Made by a program: the position numbers and the translations under genes. Below, piece by piece: positions 124 through 9,411 of a stretch of DNA of 64,000 nucleotides. Under the pieces are notes generated by a model. It was given only the letters and a program-made list of their open reading frames with translations. It did not search any database and was not told where the DNA came from. Source of the stretch: Collinsella sp. BG-O-102 (GTDB taxonomy: Bacteria; Actinomycetota; Coriobacteriia; Coriobacteriales; Coriobacteriaceae); contig NZ_JAMOKO010000008.1 of assembly GCF_023656745.1 (NCBI RefSeq), forward strand, positions 1 through 64,000, written 5' to 3'. How positions within the stretch are numbered: position 1 is the first letter of the stretch; each line of letters opens with the position of its first letter.

Positions 124-157
124 AATCGCACGGGCTTTTCATTGGTTGCAGATGAGG

Positions 158-652
158 CTAAAAGCAGAAGGCGGGGAACACGCAGTAGATGTTCGTCGCG
201 CTGTAGTAGTCATAGCTGCCGTTGCTGTGGACACAGCGGAAGGACGCGAAGTTGCTCGGATGCACGGAGCGAGTCCAGTGATAGCTGCTCGACGAAGCAC
301 TGGAATAGTTCGACGTTGTCACGCCCTTGGATTTGTAGTACTCGTACTGGGCGCCGTCAGACTGGAGGTCACCGTAGACTTCAGTCATCGAGAGCAGGAA
401 GACCTTGTCAGTCGTGGCCGAGGGGGTGCCTGCCTTGCCGCCGCCCAGGTTGTCGGTCATCTTCGTGACGGACTTCACCTTGGACTGGAGTTCGCAAGGC
501 AAAAGCGACCAGAGGTCGCCGGTATTGAGGCGGCCGCGGAGTTCGGACTTCTCCCAGCCGCCGGCGTGCGTGTTCGTGGCGTTTATTCTCTGTAGGGCCA
601 GGGCATTGTTGGTCGCCTCGAACGTAAGCCCCGCCTTGCCTGAGCCATCAGC
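158..652 (-). pseudogene. C-terminal remnant of a DUF6273-type surface protein
   Basis: The readable product contains the conserved DUF6273 pattern: GKAGLTFEATN, NAGGWEKSELR-like (here HAGGWEKSELRGRLNTGD), LLPCELQSKVKSVTK, DKVFLLSMTEVYG, a WTRSV segment and a terminal VFPAFCF. Such domains normally end large secreted or surface proteins of Coriobacteriia. Here the similarity begins abruptly near base 652. No signal peptide, wall anchor or upstream repeat region is present, and the apparent start about 70 bases further out lies in unrelated sequence. The stop lies 35 bases from the insertion sequence end. I read it as a beheaded gene. The family is recognised from sequence pattern; its function is not established. 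Confidence 0.7.
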
Positions 653-661
653 AAAAATTAA

Positions 662-832
662 GATAAGACCGTGTATGACCAATATGAACTTGAGCATATT
701 CCGTCCGTATTCATACTGGATGATCAAGGAAACATCATCGGCTTATCCGAAGGAGAGGAAGAACCCCTTGCCTTATTAAAGAAATACGCCAAATACAACG
801 GATATAAAGCGGAAGGAGGCGACATCAAGTAA
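662..832 (+). pseudogene. C-terminal remnant of a thioredoxin-like protein
   Basis: An open frame after an in-frame TAA at 659-661 encodes about 56 residues including HIPSVFILDDQGNIIGLSEG and a final lysine-rich helix. This is the second half of a thioredoxin fold: the cis-proline strand (IPSVFIL), a DDQGNII turn and the last helix. The CxxC half is missing, and no plausible start or ribosome site precedes it. It points right, towards a secreted four-cysteine protein that starts 30 bases later. In some bacteriocin clusters a thioredoxin-like accessory protein accompanies a disulfide-bonded peptide, so this may be what is left of such a helper. Confidence 0.5.
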
Positions 833-861
833 CTATCAAAGGCCAGATTAAGGAGCCAGCC

Positions 862-1266
862 ATGAAGAAATGCCTGCCCTCCATCGTCTCAGCAGCTCTT
901 TGCCTCTCCTTTGTCATGACACCATTTGTGCCCGTTGCGGCAGCCTATGCCGACGAGGGGTCTCCCGCCGAGAGCAGCGAGATCTACGTCCGAGACAACT
1001 ACGACGAAAAATACGATATATCCCTTTTTGAGCGCGGACGCTGCACGGATTCATATTCCAAGGCGTGGTGCGATTCTCACGGATTTGCAAATAACCGCAC
1101 CGTCCCTCACAAGGTCAAGCTGAACGCAAAGGAGGAGGCTTGCCTGCGCGATCCCTACCTTGCTGGCACCGCTGAAGTTATCGCCGGTCTCGTGACAACC
1201 GGTCCTGGCGGCGACTTGTTTGCAACCGCAATGACATCGTACCGACTTTTCACTTGCATGTTCTAA
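862..1266 (+). CDS. Small secreted four-cysteine protein, bacteriocin-like
   Basis: The 134-residue product starts with a clear Sec signal peptide (MKKC, hydrophobic core, AYA at 28-30 before Asp31). The predicted mature part is about 104 residues with four cysteines (61, 70, 94, 132), enough for two disulfides, and a Gly/Ala/Thr-rich hydrophobic stretch at about 101-126. The start is supported by AAGGAG six bases upstream of the ATG. It lies between a thioredoxin-like remnant and a small membrane protein, the order expected for a secreted toxin with oxidising helper and immunity protein. I recognise no named family. The bacteriocin reading is inference from size, cysteines and neighbours. 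Confidence 0.55.
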   Translation: MKKCLPSIVSAALCLSFVMTPFVPVAAAYADEGSPAESSEIYVRDNYDEKYDISLFERGRCTDSYSKAWCDSHGFANNRTVPHKVKLNAKEEACLRDPYLAGTAEVIAGLVTTGPGGDLFATAMTSYRLFTCMF

Positions 1267-1278
1267 AAGGAAGTTGCC

Positions 1279-1518
1279 ATGCTGTCGCAAACTCAATCGA
1301 GATACTTGACCACAATCGGCTTTGCCCTGCTTGCATTACTCTTTGCTAGCGACCTTTTGCTGAAACCGCCCAAGGAACTCGTTTCGCTTGCCATAGCCTG
1401 CATTTCCGCCCTTTACTTTACGGCAACCCTATTCGTCGGACTAAAGGAGAGGAAAAAGGGCGCAGTCGTTGCATCTGCCGTAGGCGTGGTCACAGCCATT
1501 GCCTCATTCTTTATCTGA
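1279..1518 (+). CDS. Small three-helix membrane protein, possible immunity protein
   Basis: This 79-residue protein has three hydrophobic segments (about 10-27, 33-53 and 61-78) separated by short charged loops (KPPKE, KERKKG) and no other domain. It begins 12 bases after the stop of the secreted four-cysteine protein, with AAAAGGAAG as ribosome site, so the two are probably cotranscribed. Small multi-span proteins directly behind a bacteriocin gene are often immunity proteins; that role is inferred from position only. No family was recognised. Confidence 0.5.
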   Translation: MLSQTQSRYLTTIGFALLALLFASDLLLKPPKELVSLAIACISALYFTATLFVGLKERKKGAVVASAVGVVTAIASFFI

Positions 1519-1966: not shown

Positions 1967-2404
1967 TCACTCCTCGAAAAAAGCCGGCACTCGGTTAGTC
2001 CTACGCATCTTGAAATCGCCAGTCTCGTGGGAGACGTAGAGAATGCCGTCCATCCCGTCTCGCGATGCATATGAAAGGTGAACAGAACCGCAATCCGCTC
2101 CATCATTGTCGAGAAGATCGAACGAGTTCGGGTCGCTCGTTGCGGCCAAACGACCACTCAGACAAGAGCCATCGTCATTACAGATTTGCCATTCCATATC
2201 TTCACCTGCAAGAATCGCCATAGACGGCTTGGTCGCGCCATCGTTGACATACATCCCATCTATGCCAAAACCGTTTTCAGCGCCATCGATGAACGACTGC
2301 TCGGACCTAAACCTCGCAAATGATGCACATAGCACCATTGCAAGACAAAGTGCAAAGCCAACAATCGCTATCTTTGCATAGCTCTTGCCTATCATGTCAT
2401 TCAC
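1967..2404 (-). CDS. Membrane-anchored small protein of unknown function
   Basis: The 145-residue product has one hydrophobic N-terminal segment (about 9-30) acting as anchor or uncleaved signal. The outer domain is rich in Gly, Asp and Ser, with predicted short strands (GMYVNDG, MEWQICNDDGSCLSG, GILYVSHETGDFKMRR), which suggests a small beta-barrel or beta-sandwich. Its start overlaps the last 8 bases of the upstream ABC transporter gene, so translation is probably coupled and the two proteins likely act together. Cysteines 77, 83 and 107 could form disulfides outside the cell. I know no named family. Confidence 0.55.
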   Translation of the reverse strand: MNDMIGKSYAKIAIVGFALCLAMVLCASFARFRSEQSFIDGAENGFGIDGMYVNDGATKPSMAILAGEDMEWQICNDDGSCLSGRLAATSDPNSFDLLDNDGADCGSVHLSYASRDGMDGILYVSHETGDFKMRRTNRVPAFFEE

Positions 2405-4211
2405 CTCCTTCGTATGTATCGAGGTATTCCTGCTTGAGTGTTTGCGAGGACGACTTGATCTTTTCCACGAGCGTGCCGGCCTCGATGAAGTAGAACGAGT
2501 TGGTGAGGTCTGCCAGGTCGTCGAGCAGATGGCTTGAGATGAGCACGCTTCGTCCCCGCGCCACCTCGCTGCGCATCGCGTCGCAGGAGGTTTTCCGCTT
2601 TCCCGGATCGAGGCCGTTCAGCGGTTCATCGAGGATGAGGTACGGGCAACCGGTCGATATCGCCATGGCAAGCTTTACCTGCTGCTTCATTCCTGTCGAG
2701 AGTTTACGGGTCGGCTTGTCGAGATATGGGGAGATTCCGAGGGAGCTGCAGAGCGAGTCGATGTCGGTGGCCGATTTCCACGCCTCCCTAACGAAAGAGA
2801 GGTGCTCGAGGGCTGATAGCGTGGGATAGAGATCCGTGTCGCCTGAAGAGCTCAGGTAGACGAGTTCTGCGAATTCGGCTGATCGACGTTGGCAGATTCC
2901 GTCTGCCGCCAGGCTTCCCGAGCGGATGCGGGTGGGAAATTGGCCCGACAGCGCTTCAAGAAGGGTGGTTTTCCCCGAGCCGTTGGGAGCAACGAGGCCC
3001 GCCGCCGTTCCCGGGCTCAGGAAAAGCGACCCGATTGAAAGTATCGTCGTGCTTCCGTATCCCACGCTCGCGTCCAGAAGCTCGAGCCCATGGTGCTTTT
3101 TCGCGGGTCCAGGCTGTTTGGGCGAACGTGTCGCAACGGCGCCGACCGCAAAAAGGACCGCGACGTATATCAGGGCCACGGCAAGCATCGATGCGCTGCC
3201 TGAACCGGAGCCAATGAATTCTGTCGGGAAGCATCCTACGTAACCCGTTGCCTCGATAGGCGAGAATACGGCCAGCGGCAGGAGATTGAGCGCGGCGTTA
3301 TGCCCCAGTGCCGAATCGGACAGTAACGGGAATGCCGGGGCCGCGACAAGCAGCGCGGAGGTAAGGGGGCCTGCGAAGACGCGCCTCGTTGCGGTCGATA
3401 GGACGGCGGAGCAAACGGATATCAAGGTTCCGCCCGCAAGCAGCGCGATAAGCAGGGCTGTGAAGACGTTTCCCGCGGTCGTGGTGGTAAGCACGCCGTT
3501 ATGGAAGAAGGCGATCGGGTACCCAGTTTGCCCGAAGCCGTTTAGGGCCAAGGCGTAAATGCTCCCGGGTGCAAGGCCGGCGAGGAGCATCGCGGTCCCC
3601 GCGCCAATTATCGAAAACACGGTTTGGATAAGGCGCCGGAATTTGGGCACGGGCGCCTTTGCCGCCAGGGTCGCAGGCCTTGTGGCGCCGAGCACGAGTA
3701 TCGACGAGAGAAGGAAGGGGATGAAGGGAAGGAAAGACGGCGCCTGGGCAATGGCGTAAGGCAGGAAGGAAAGGAATGGCAGGTCGTTTGCGGAGGCTGG
3801 GATATCCGTGATGCCGGAGCTGCTCAGAGCGCGGCAATACGCGAGGTCTGCGTCATTGGTCTCTCGGTCTCCCACGATGGACCCGGATTGGAAGCCTTCG
3901 TCCATGAGCGCGTAGTAGCTCTCGGCAGAGTCGAGAAAGGCGGCGTCGGTTTGAGCGGCGAGGGCGGCGTTCGCGTATCTTGCAAGCTCAGCGTCATCTT
4001 GCTGCTCTGGCGATAGGTCTGTGCCGCTGGCCTGGGGCGCGCGCGTATTGAATGCGTCGACGAAGCCCTGCATGCCCTGCTTCATGAAGAAGGGTCCGTA
4101 GATGGGTGAATTGAACGCAATGGGGATGGAGAAGGCTGCAGCGAGAACGAGCGTACAAATCCATACGGCCTTGTCTCTTAGGATTAGTTTGAGAAGAAGT
4201 CGACAGTACAT
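2397..4211 (-). CDS. ABC transporter, permease fused to ATPase
   Basis: The 604-residue protein joins an ABC-2-like permease (a first helix at about 15-35, a large extracellular loop, then five or more helices between about 150 and 370) to a C-terminal ATPase domain (about 380-604). The ATPase shows APNGSGKTT as Walker A, LSTGMKQQVKLAM as signature, YLILDEPLNGLDP as Walker B and a switch histidine in LISSHLLDD. The first glycine of the usual Walker A is alanine, which is uncommon. Most ABC-2 exporters keep the two parts on separate genes. The next gene overlaps its end by 8 bases. Export of a peptide or antibiotic is plausible; the substrate is unknown. Confidence 0.75.
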   Translation of the reverse strand: MYCRLLLKLILRDKAVWICTLVLAAAFSIPIAFNSPIYGPFFMKQGMQGFVDAFNTRAPQASGTDLSPEQQDDAELARYANAALAAQTDAAFLDSAESYYALMDEGFQSGSIVGDRETNDADLAYCRALSSSGITDIPASANDLPFLSFLPYAIAQAPSFLPFIPFLLSSILVLGATRPATLAAKAPVPKFRRLIQTVFSIIGAGTAMLLAGLAPGSIYALALNGFGQTGYPIAFFHNGVLTTTTAGNVFTALLIALLAGGTLISVCSAVLSTATRRVFAGPLTSALLVAAPAFPLLSDSALGHNAALNLLPLAVFSPIEATGYVGCFPTEFIGSGSGSASMLAVALIYVAVLFAVGAVATRSPKQPGPAKKHHGLELLDASVGYGSTTILSIGSLFLSPGTAAGLVAPNGSGKTTLLEALSGQFPTRIRSGSLAADGICQRRSAEFAELVYLSSSGDTDLYPTLSALEHLSFVREAWKSATDIDSLCSSLGISPYLDKPTRKLSTGMKQQVKLAMAISTGCPYLILDEPLNGLDPGKRKTSCDAMRSEVARGRSVLISSHLLDDLADLTNSFYFIEAGTLVEKIKSSSQTLKQEYLDTYEGGE

Positions 4212-4552: not shown

Positions 4553-4684
4553 GTATTCCTACCATTTTTAAAGAAACAACGGCGGTAATCGCTATCGCGA
4601 TTGCGCCAATAATACCGAGCGCCATCTATTTATACTTGATTTAAGGCGGAGTGGAATGTGGGCGCGCAAGGAGATGCGGAATCG

Positions 4685-5311
4685 ATGAGAGCCTCAAAAA
4701 AAATTACTGCAGTGTTATCAACTTTCATCCTCTCTATTCTTCCATTTCTGATTCTATGGGCGGCTTGGTCAGTCCTCCCTGATACAATTCCCGCTCATTG
4801 GAGTGGGGGTGTGGTTGATCGATGGGGTAATAAGCTTGAATTGCTGGTTGTTCCGCTGTTTTCTCTGATTGGTTCTATTGCAATTTCTGTGTACCTTATT
4901 GTTTCCACGCGGCGAAGAGAGTTCGCGGATTTCTCTGTTCGAATGCGACGGGACTTTGTTGCGTGCTATATTTCAAGTCTTCTTTTATCGACAACCTGCT
5001 CAGTGATAATTGCCGTTTGGGTTCAGTTGATTCTTACGCAAAGCACTGCGTTTGATGGGGGGCTTGGACTATCGATCCTGTATTCCCTTCCCGGGCTATA
5101 TGTGATCTTGTGCGCTTTGCCGCCTTTTTATGCGAGCGGCGAGAGCAAAAAGGCAGAGCGCCTGATAACAGTTCTTATTGGCGGCGCGGAGATTGTTCTT
5201 TGCGGAATAGTGCTTGAAGGTTCGGCTGCCTCTTATGCGATGATTGGACTGATGATTCTGTTCTGTGCGTTTGAGATTGTGTCACAGGTAAGGGATAGCC
5301 GGTCCTTATGA
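4685..5311 (+). CDS. DUF1648 domain membrane protein
   Basis: The product (208 residues from the ATG at 4685) carries the DUF1648 signature in its first loop: LPDTIPAHWSGG followed by DRWGNKLE. Five to six hydrophobic helices fit the family of SdpI-related and DUF1648 membrane proteins. The chosen ATG has AAGGAG at 11 bases; a GTG at 4658 in the same frame is possible and would add nine residues. The gene is AT-richer than the island to its right, so it probably has a separate origin. Family members include toxin-immunity proteins and poorly characterised membrane proteins, so no exact role is claimed. Confidence 0.65.
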   Translation: MRASKKITAVLSTFILSILPFLILWAAWSVLPDTIPAHWSGGVVDRWGNKLELLVVPLFSLIGSIAISVYLIVSTRRREFADFSVRMRRDFVACYISSLLLSTTCSVIIAVWVQLILTQSTAFDGGLGLSILYSLPGLYVILCALPPFYASGESKKAERLITVLIGGAEIVLCGIVLEGSAASYAMIGLMILFCAFEIVSQVRDSRSL

Positions 5312-8201: not shown

Positions 8202-8603
8202 TCAGCGGTCCAGAGCCCTGCGCGAAGCCGCGGGCGCCTCGGCCGCGTCGCACGCGCGGTAGCGCACACCCGAGCCGCCGCGCGCCTCGATCTCGAGCCA
8301 GCCCTCGCCGTCCGACTCCCGCCCGAAGAAGATGAGCTGGAGCTCTCGGACTTTGCCTCTGTCGTCCGCCGCGTCCACCAGGTAGACGTAGTTTGCCCCC
8401 GCCCCAGTGGCGTCGGCGTAGGCTCTCGCGTGGCTGCCGGGCTCGGGCGCGGGCGCCCACATGGCTATCTCAGGGTTGGGCAGCACGCGGTCGGTGATCG
8501 AGCGCAGCGCCGACCCCCAGCCGGCGTCGAGCAGGGCATTCCCGCCCAGGACGAGCGCTGCGGAGAGGAGGACGAGCATGGCGGCGAGCGGCCTCCTACG
8601 CAT
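8202..8603 (-). CDS. YxeA-like small secreted or anchored protein
   Basis: The 133-residue product has a hydrophobic N-terminal signal or anchor (about 7-25) followed by a domain with YVYLVDAADDRGKVRELQL, then WLEIEARGG near the end. This matches the pattern of YxeA/DUF1093-like proteins that accompany lantibiotic immunity transporters. Its start overlaps the end of the second permease gene by 8 bases, indicating translational coupling. The likely role is an extracytoplasmic helper of the transporter. Family assignment is by pattern and context and is less certain than for the neighbours. Confidence 0.55.
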   Translation of the reverse strand: MRRRPLAAMLVLLSAALVLGGNALLDAGWGSALRSITDRVLPNPEIAMWAPAPEPGSHARAYADATGAGANYVYLVDAADDRGKVRELQLIFFGRESDGEGWLEIEARGGSGVRYRACDAAEAPAASRRALDR

Positions 8604-9411
8604 CCGCCCTCCCGTCCTCGAAGCGGCAGAACCAGGCGAGAAGGACGGCGTCGGCTAACAGGGTGAGCACGAGGCCAGCGAGCGCAGTCGTGAGGAGAGG
8701 GCCCGCCGCGCGTGCTGCGTCGATGAAGGCCTCTACCCCGAGCGACCCCAGGCGCGCGGGCCAGGCGAGCGGCACCCAGCTCAGGGGCGTCGCCAGGGCA
8801 CCGGTGAGCTCGCCGGTCATGAGGCCGTGCGCAAGTCCGCCCACTGAGAAGAACGCGAGGAGCATACCCGCCGCGCCGGCGCCGATGGCGGCGTTGCGGC
8901 CGAGGCGCAGGGCCACGCCGAGCCCCAGCGCGTAGAGGGGCAGGCTGCCCAGCACGATGCCCGCCCAGGCGGCCGCAAGCGGAGCGGGCCCGAGCGGCAG
9001 GCGCCCGGCAACGGCGATCACGGCCCCGAACACGCCAAGCGCCACGGCCAGCGCGCCCGCGCCGAGCGCCGCAAGGGCGAGTAGCTTCGCCGCGACGGCG
9101 CGCCCGCGCGAGGGGACCGCCGTGAGGTTGGCGAGACGCCCGGCAGCGCGCTCGTCGTCCACGGCGAGCCCACAGACGATGGCGGACATGAGCGGCATGA
9201 GGGCGCCGAGGAACTGGGCGTAGGCGTCCGCGCCCAGCGCCGGGTCCCATCGGGTTACGGAGAAGTACTCGCCGCAGGCAAGACCGGCTGCCAGGCCGCA
9301 GACGAGGTGCACCACCGTGAGCGGGGAGCGCGCCAGGCGCAGGGCCTCGGAGAGCAGGGCCCGCGGGAGAGTCATACGCGGCGTCGGGTCGGAGAGTTGT
9401 GTCATGGCCAT
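8596..9411 (-). CDS. Lantibiotic-immunity-type ABC permease (MutG/LanG-like)
   Basis: From the ATG at 9411 the product is 271 residues with six hydrophobic helices and a short cytoplasmic N-terminus (MAMTQLSDP). It is the second of two consecutive ABC-2-type permeases. Stop and start overlap by one base with the first permease (TGATG), preceded by a strong GAGGAG site. The pair plus ATPase matches LanF-LanE-LanG transporters, which expel lantibiotics from the membrane. A longer open frame extends upstream to 10029 but would overlap the first permease almost completely, so I reject it as the start. Confidence 0.75.
   Translation of the reverse strand: MAMTQLSDPTPRMTLPRALLSEALRLARSPLTVVHLVCGLAAGLACGEYFSVTRWDPALGADAYAQFLGALMPLMSAIVCGLAVDDERAAGRLANLTAVPSRGRAVAAKLLALAALGAGALAVALGVFGAVIAVAGRLPLGPAPLAAAWAGIVLGSLPLYALGLGVALRLGRNAAIGAGAAGMLLAFFSVGGLAHGLMTGELTGALATPLSWVPLAWPARLGSLGVEAFIDAARAAGPLLTTALAGLVLTLLADAVLLAWFCRFEDGRADA

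Follow-up and report, generated by a model that had tools for sequence, protein, structure and literature searches.

A probable decayed bacteriocin operon of Coriobacteriales with a four-cysteine secreted protein and a membrane gene that outlives it

Class IIa bacteriocins carry a YGNGV-type box followed by cysteines, and their mature size is below about 50 residues. The lactococcin 972 family (PF09683) comprises Sec-dependent bacteriocins and is also found in Actinobacteria, and the SdpC/SdpI cannibalism system of Bacillus combines a Sec-exported disulfide toxin with a multi-helix membrane immunity protein. Pediocin PA-1, encoded by pedABCD, is a four-cysteine bacteriocin with two disulfides, whose potency is raised by the thioredoxin-like CXXC protein PedC and whose cluster includes an immunity gene, according to PMC4919988. 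That paper also cites thermophilin, whose partner is BlpG(St), and sublancin 168, which has Bdb proteins, as further bacteriocins matured by a thiol-disulfide oxidoreductase. Here, we describe a cassette from Coriobacteriales that resembles pediocin PA-1 in that its four intact sets combine four cysteines with a gene for a thioredoxin-like helper and a small gene of immunity type. On balance, we consider it probable that a decayed copy of this cassette in Collinsella derives from a three-gene bacteriocin operon of the order, Sec-dependent and disulfide-bonded, with a dedicated oxidase and with an immunity gene that outlives it.

The window, a stretch of 64,000 nucleotides, belongs to a 2.27-Mb Collinsella genome whose nearest named relatives in one scan were C. 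aerofaciens and uncultured Collinsella, and the cassette lies near the start of the window (Table 1). An earlier note on this DNA described a thioredoxin remnant, a four-cysteine secreted protein and a small membrane protein, and all three frames are indeed present as it stated. Against a profile built from the intact helpers, the remnant aligns with positions 118-168 of 169 at E 2.8e-15, a value that counts one TAA, and an in-frame TAA at 659-661 lies immediately 5' of its frame. A deletion with its end near 657 removed the rest of the helper gene, including the CxxC site, and joined the last third to a DUF6273 fragment. The helper is broken, as the note had it, and its stop codon predates the deletion.

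The four-cysteine protein has 134 residues (862-1266, plus strand), 104 of which follow the predicted signal peptide. This signal was called by eye and from hydropathy, not by a predictor. Cysteines 61, 70, 94 and 132 lie after the signal, and two further cysteines lie within the signal part. In the six full-length copies the acidic linker has 22-33 residues and a net charge of -1 to -8, and it is possibly a pro-region; the C-terminal half of the core is Gly-rich and fairly hydrophobic. Fold prediction of the window's mature protein alone gave a mean pLDDT of 44.5 and a pTM of 0.36, too low for a usable model. Purine-rich ribosome-binding stretches are found 5' of the ATG of both the 134-aa and the 79-aa frame, and the latter, announced as a three-helix protein, does have three hydrophobic segments. 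Outside the cassette, the window carries a 604-aa protein (2397-4211, minus strand) in which membrane segments precede an ABC ATPase domain, followed by a small secreted-type protein (1967-2404). Past an ABC transporter, 3 kb from the cassette, lies a 217-aa DUF1648 protein (4658-5311, plus strand); DUF1648 is the domain found in SdpI-type immunity proteins.

Table 1 Parts of the window cassette and the adjoining gene fragment.
Feature	Position	Strand	Details
Thioredoxin-like helper remnant (C-terminal third)	657-832	+	frame opens 662, 53-aa frame from usable GTG 671, stop ending 832
Probable Sec-type signal peptide, residues 1-30 of the four-Cys protein	862-951	+	hydrophobic segment 7-23; cleavage A-Y-A/D by eye
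Linker of 26 residues, acidic (net charge -6), poorly conserved	952-1029	+	possible pro-region
Conserved 78-residue core and stop codon	1030-1266	+	Cys codons 1042-1044, 1069-1071, 1141-1143, 1255-1257
79-aa membrane protein, three hydrophobic segments, basic between second and third	1279-1518	+	hydropathy; putative immunity protein
DUF6273 gene fragment, outside the cassette	about 155-650, at widest 155-727	-	placed beside the cassette by deletion

Relatives of the 134-aa protein are few. At genus level it was matched in 15 of 43 genomes: the window's, six with near-identical broken copies (G001, G004, G024, G030, G031 and G033; DNA identity is 95-97%, beginning at base 657 of the window), G037 with an intact copy, and seven that hold the last 29 codons only. 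A search of the order (E 0.01) matched 21 of 395 Coriobacteriales genomes, 14 of them by broken, ruined or tail-only copies. One of the 21, G268, matched over 31 residues at E 0.003-0.006 within the frame of an ABC transporter, and we rejected this match as chance. In the phylum sample, three of 396 genomes matched, all from the window's own family. The four-cysteine relatives are restricted to Coriobacteriales in the samples searched, and searches of phage records, viral contigs and plasmids (G058 query) added no new members.

Full-length open frames were recovered from six genomes (the window's, G037, G058, G182, G343 and G217), and the five relatives are 33-58% identical to the window's protein. 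All six share the spacing C-x8-C-x23/25-C-x33-37-C (the gap excludes a fifth Cys of G343) and a core of 76-78 residues. Because full-length relatives with the same four cysteines occur in five other genomes, the frame is more than a chance reading frame. The first two cysteines precede an HG-F/Y-x-NNR stretch, which reads HGYGNNRPV in G343 and G217. A hydrophobic, signal-like N-terminus is present in five of the six members, that of G217 being fused to helper remains. Pfam, NCBIfam, PHROGs and PDB sequences held no convincing match for any member, in keeping with the earlier remark that the toxin family was not recognised, and no housekeeping family was matched. Among the bacteriocin models of Pfam and NCBIfam, none was matched by the six members at E up to 5; what matches there were, were weak and to unrelated families.

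The order helper, four-Cys gene, membrane protein gene is intact in G037, G058, G182 and G343, which represent four genera and three families of Coriobacteriales; the earlier note had expected intact copies elsewhere. Of the five other genomes with a full-length frame, four have an intact thioredoxin-like gene in front of it. The fifth, G217, keeps the four-Cys and membrane genes and only the start of the helper, fused to the four-Cys signal. In all five, the four-Cys gene is followed by one for a small hydrophobic membrane protein; in the intact sets this gene encodes 77-93 aa and begins about 2-11 bases downstream. This gene order supports the proposed resemblance to a disulfide-bonded bacteriocin cassette; killing and immunity we infer.

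The same gene order and conserved cysteines would be equally expected if the four-Cys protein served the envelope of its own cell, as a secreted structural or sensory partner that the helper folds and that the membrane protein either anchors or senses, with no antagonism. Such a role would also suit the finding of the family solely in Coriobacteriales in the samples searched, since restriction to a single order is compatible with a physiological role. We nevertheless consider this explanation unlikely, since the family is patchy within the order (the 21 matches in 395 genomes include one by chance and 14 broken, ruined or tail-only copies) and the neighbourhoods of the sets are unrelated to one another. 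G058 has secA, prfB (by eye) and a radical-SAM/SPASM gene in its surroundings, G037 has yceG and a LuxR-type gene, G217 has a chaperonin gene and a response-regulator gene, and no gene was recognised around the G343 set. The surroundings in G182 (L067 22-7364) hold TraG-like ATPase, CHAP and SpaA-type genes, and because of the nearby TraG-like ATPase this set probably lies within a conjugative element. The radical-SAM/SPASM gene (L048 6560-7813) is divergent from the intact G058 cassette, and none was seen beside the other sets. An ABC exporter was not found among the 20 neighbouring frames scanned, some of which are perhaps on the wrong strand; this is a point against the bacteriocin reading.

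Both the LuxR-type gene (L049 6566-9154) and the response-regulator gene (L069 4773-5480) adjoin their cassettes divergently, and they are possible regulators of these sets, though not common to the sets. Their position, and the pairing of a Cys-rich secreted protein with a membrane protein, would be in keeping with a secreted signal, with the four-Cys protein as a disulfide-stabilised pheromone or adhesin and the small membrane protein as its receptor. We judge this very unlikely: the regulators differ between sets, a receptor of 77-93 aa without a signalling domain is hard to envisage, and such receptors would be orphaned from any open signal gene in 13 genomes (see below).

The four intact helpers (165-181 aa) all carry CPHC, and their N-termini are hydrophobic or show a lipobox (by eye). 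The oxidising enzyme DsbA of E. coli has CPHC as its active site; ResA proteins usually reduce. The ResA model was matched by all four helpers, below its curated cut-off, and AhpC-TSA by the G037 helper only (30.6 bits against a cut-off of 26); a PedC-type model was absent from the 22 families that the four matched (E up to 1). When 297 genomes were searched with a helper profile, 17 matched, and the matches above 100 bits came from cassettes or what is left of them, apart from those in G242 and in G032, where the contig ends. Weaker matches in G313, G243, G229 and G396 (48-55 bits) were set aside as ordinary TlpA/ResA proteins, with neighbours that are CcdA-like or ferredoxin-type by eye. In G242 (L089 1127-2079), a CSYC helper with a lipobox directly precedes a 106-aa membrane protein, and the four-Cys gene is absent at this pair. 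This is odd for a helper that serves a toxin only, and it favours the own-cell envelope role; a different cargo or loss of the four-Cys gene is possible.

Disulfide formation in the host was assessed by a search of the window genome for three families. No match to VKOR, Thioredoxin_4 or DSBA was found in the window genome, and among 14 genomes used as positive controls these families were matched in 3, 9 and 8, respectively. The window genome may lack a general disulfide-forming enzyme. In a host of this kind, a cassette that has to form disulfides would need an oxidase of its own.

Decay of the cassette can be followed within the window's clade, which consists of the window and six sisters. 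The in-frame TAA of the helper is common to all seven copies, and several sisters carry other helper truncations, distinct from the window's deletion. In each of the six sisters a short T tract is the site at which the four-Cys frame is interrupted, four of these sisters have a further TAG, and the window has the sole open four-Cys frame of the clade. In the HGF stretch, the window keeps Phe, as do three intact relatives, and the sisters have Ser. By parsimony, the helper appears to have died before the clade split and the four-Cys frame later, because every copy has the TAA whereas the window still has an open four-Cys frame. Since the helper is gone, the open window frame probably gives no correctly folded toxin, and the window copy is unlikely to work as a weapon. 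We also considered whether the T tract, which has 5, 6 or 7 Ts, acts as a switch, and rejected this since four of the six broken copies have the further stop. Separate deletions from the DUF6273 side into the helper gene seem to have occurred in the window, L004 and L010. In L003, the counterpart of the window's DUF6273 stretch (8275-9257) has a pilin-like N-terminus (by eye) and a DUF6273 part.

None of the six full-length four-Cys frames is without a membrane gene, so that the counterexample named in the earlier note, a full-length relative lacking the small membrane protein, was not found. Conversely, 13 genomes have an open membrane gene but no open four-Cys frame (G001, G024, G030, G031, G033, G006, G007, G008, G010, G011, G019, G042 and G253). 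It is open in five of the six broken sister cassettes (the L002 copy has a stop), in all seven readable tail-only copies (an eighth, in G012, is cut by the contig end) and in G253, which retains the helper and the four-Cys gene only as ruins. The orphan of G042 is 61% identical to the window's gene and stands beside an rpmE-like gene (by eye), with no toxin or helper found in the 900 bases before it. Together, the lack of toxin frames without a membrane gene and the orphan membrane genes form a toxin/immunity pattern, and because the membrane protein is kept alone after decay of helper and toxin, it is read as the immunity protein.

The eight tail-only copies (L013-L019 and L026) all start at window base 1177 behind the same upstream stretch; one is on a plasmid of G001 and the other seven are in seven genomes. 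Because of this shared first base and shared upstream stretch, the tail-only junction is a single one that has spread among plasmids and other contigs. Tail-only copies with the membrane gene, annotated as hypothetical, lie on the plasmids NZ_CP048434.1 and NZ_OY725718.1. On both plasmids ParA/CopG-type genes are near the membrane gene, as might be expected of a toxin-antitoxin or plasmid addiction pair in which the toxin and the membrane protein that neutralises it would act within one cell. That explanation is highly improbable in our view, given that both plasmids carry only the four-Cys tail, that five of six members have a signal-like N-terminus, that the helper is an anchored CxxC protein and that PADLOC found nothing.

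The occurrence of the membrane gene alone, on plasmids and beside the rpmE-like gene, also argues against the own-cell envelope role, as does the faster divergence of the membrane protein relative to its four-Cys partner. Membrane proteins of other cassettes are 13-18% identical to the window's (a smaller alignment gave 16-25%), compared with the 33-58% of the four-Cys proteins. Against the bacteriocin reading, the membrane proteins have no residue that is invariant across cassettes, so that they are linked by position, size and hydropathy. Three segments exceed the hydropathy threshold in six of seven proteins, and in the seventh, of G037, the middle segment scores 1.46 against 1.5. Neither the window's membrane protein nor the 7-member set matched a DUF1648/SdpI domain. 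Within the window's clade, pN/pS of the membrane gene is 0.65 (7 copies), 1.02 (7 orphans) and 0.82 (all 14); constraint is only weak there, and strong selection inside the clade is not demonstrable by pN/pS, which counts against the toxin/immunity pattern. The comparison of the G042 orphan with the window's gene gave dN 0.27 and dS 2.0, a ratio of 0.135 with dS near saturation, and this constraint may date from a time when the toxin was present.

These observations are consistent with a bacteriocin operon, which we suppose to work as follows. The four-Cys protein would leave the cell by the Sec route, and the membrane- or lipid-anchored, ResA-type thioredoxin-fold helper, whose CPHC motif and place in the order are observed, would form its two disulfides. 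The acidic linker is possibly removed, to leave a core of 76-78 residues that would harm the membrane or envelope of close relatives, and the small membrane protein would protect the producer. In the window's lineage, the helper would have been lost first and the toxin frame then broken in the sisters, with the membrane gene kept or passed on, plasmids included, as an orphan immunity gene. More tentatively, and with a little less than even confidence, we propose that anaerobic gut Actinomycetota have a family of secreted two-disulfide bacteriocins which, where the host is without DsbA or VKOR, come with a DsbA-like CPHC oxidase on a ResA-type fold, and that these bacteriocins drove the spread of an orphan, partly plasmid-borne immunity gene among C. 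aerofaciens relatives. If true, the proteins would be narrow-spectrum candidates against common gut Actinomycetota. The cassette would also show how an anaerobe without the usual enzymes forms disulfides in one secreted protein, and it would provide a natural case of an immunity gene outliving its toxin, for which strains with and without the gene exist. Among the literature matches listed, mostly non-subscription papers, no bacteriocin of such make is described.

When the cassette is set against known systems, the HGYGNNRPV of G343 and G217 faintly recalls the YGNGV box of pediocin PA-1, but the cysteines are placed otherwise relative to this motif and the core has 76-78 residues, compared with 44 in pediocin. 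The cassette protein has a Sec-type signal and an acidic linker, with no ABC exporter seen, and its immunity candidate is predicted to span the membrane, whereas the immunity protein of pediocin is cytoplasmic. By size, motif and profile match, the protein falls outside class IIa. The four helpers differ from PedC and BrcD in matching ResA-type models and no PedC-type model, TIGR01295 being the profile of the PedC/BrcD accessory proteins. Thermophilin and sublancin 168, the latter a modified peptide, differ from the cassette in their peptides, export and helpers. Unlike lactococcin 972, the six members match no Pfam bacteriocin model (E up to 5), and unlike SdpI, the membrane proteins have no DUF1648 match. 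The sequence family would be new, and its arrangement, in which a four-cysteine bacteriocin is joined by a CXXC helper and an immunity gene, is already known from pediocin PA-1 with PedC.
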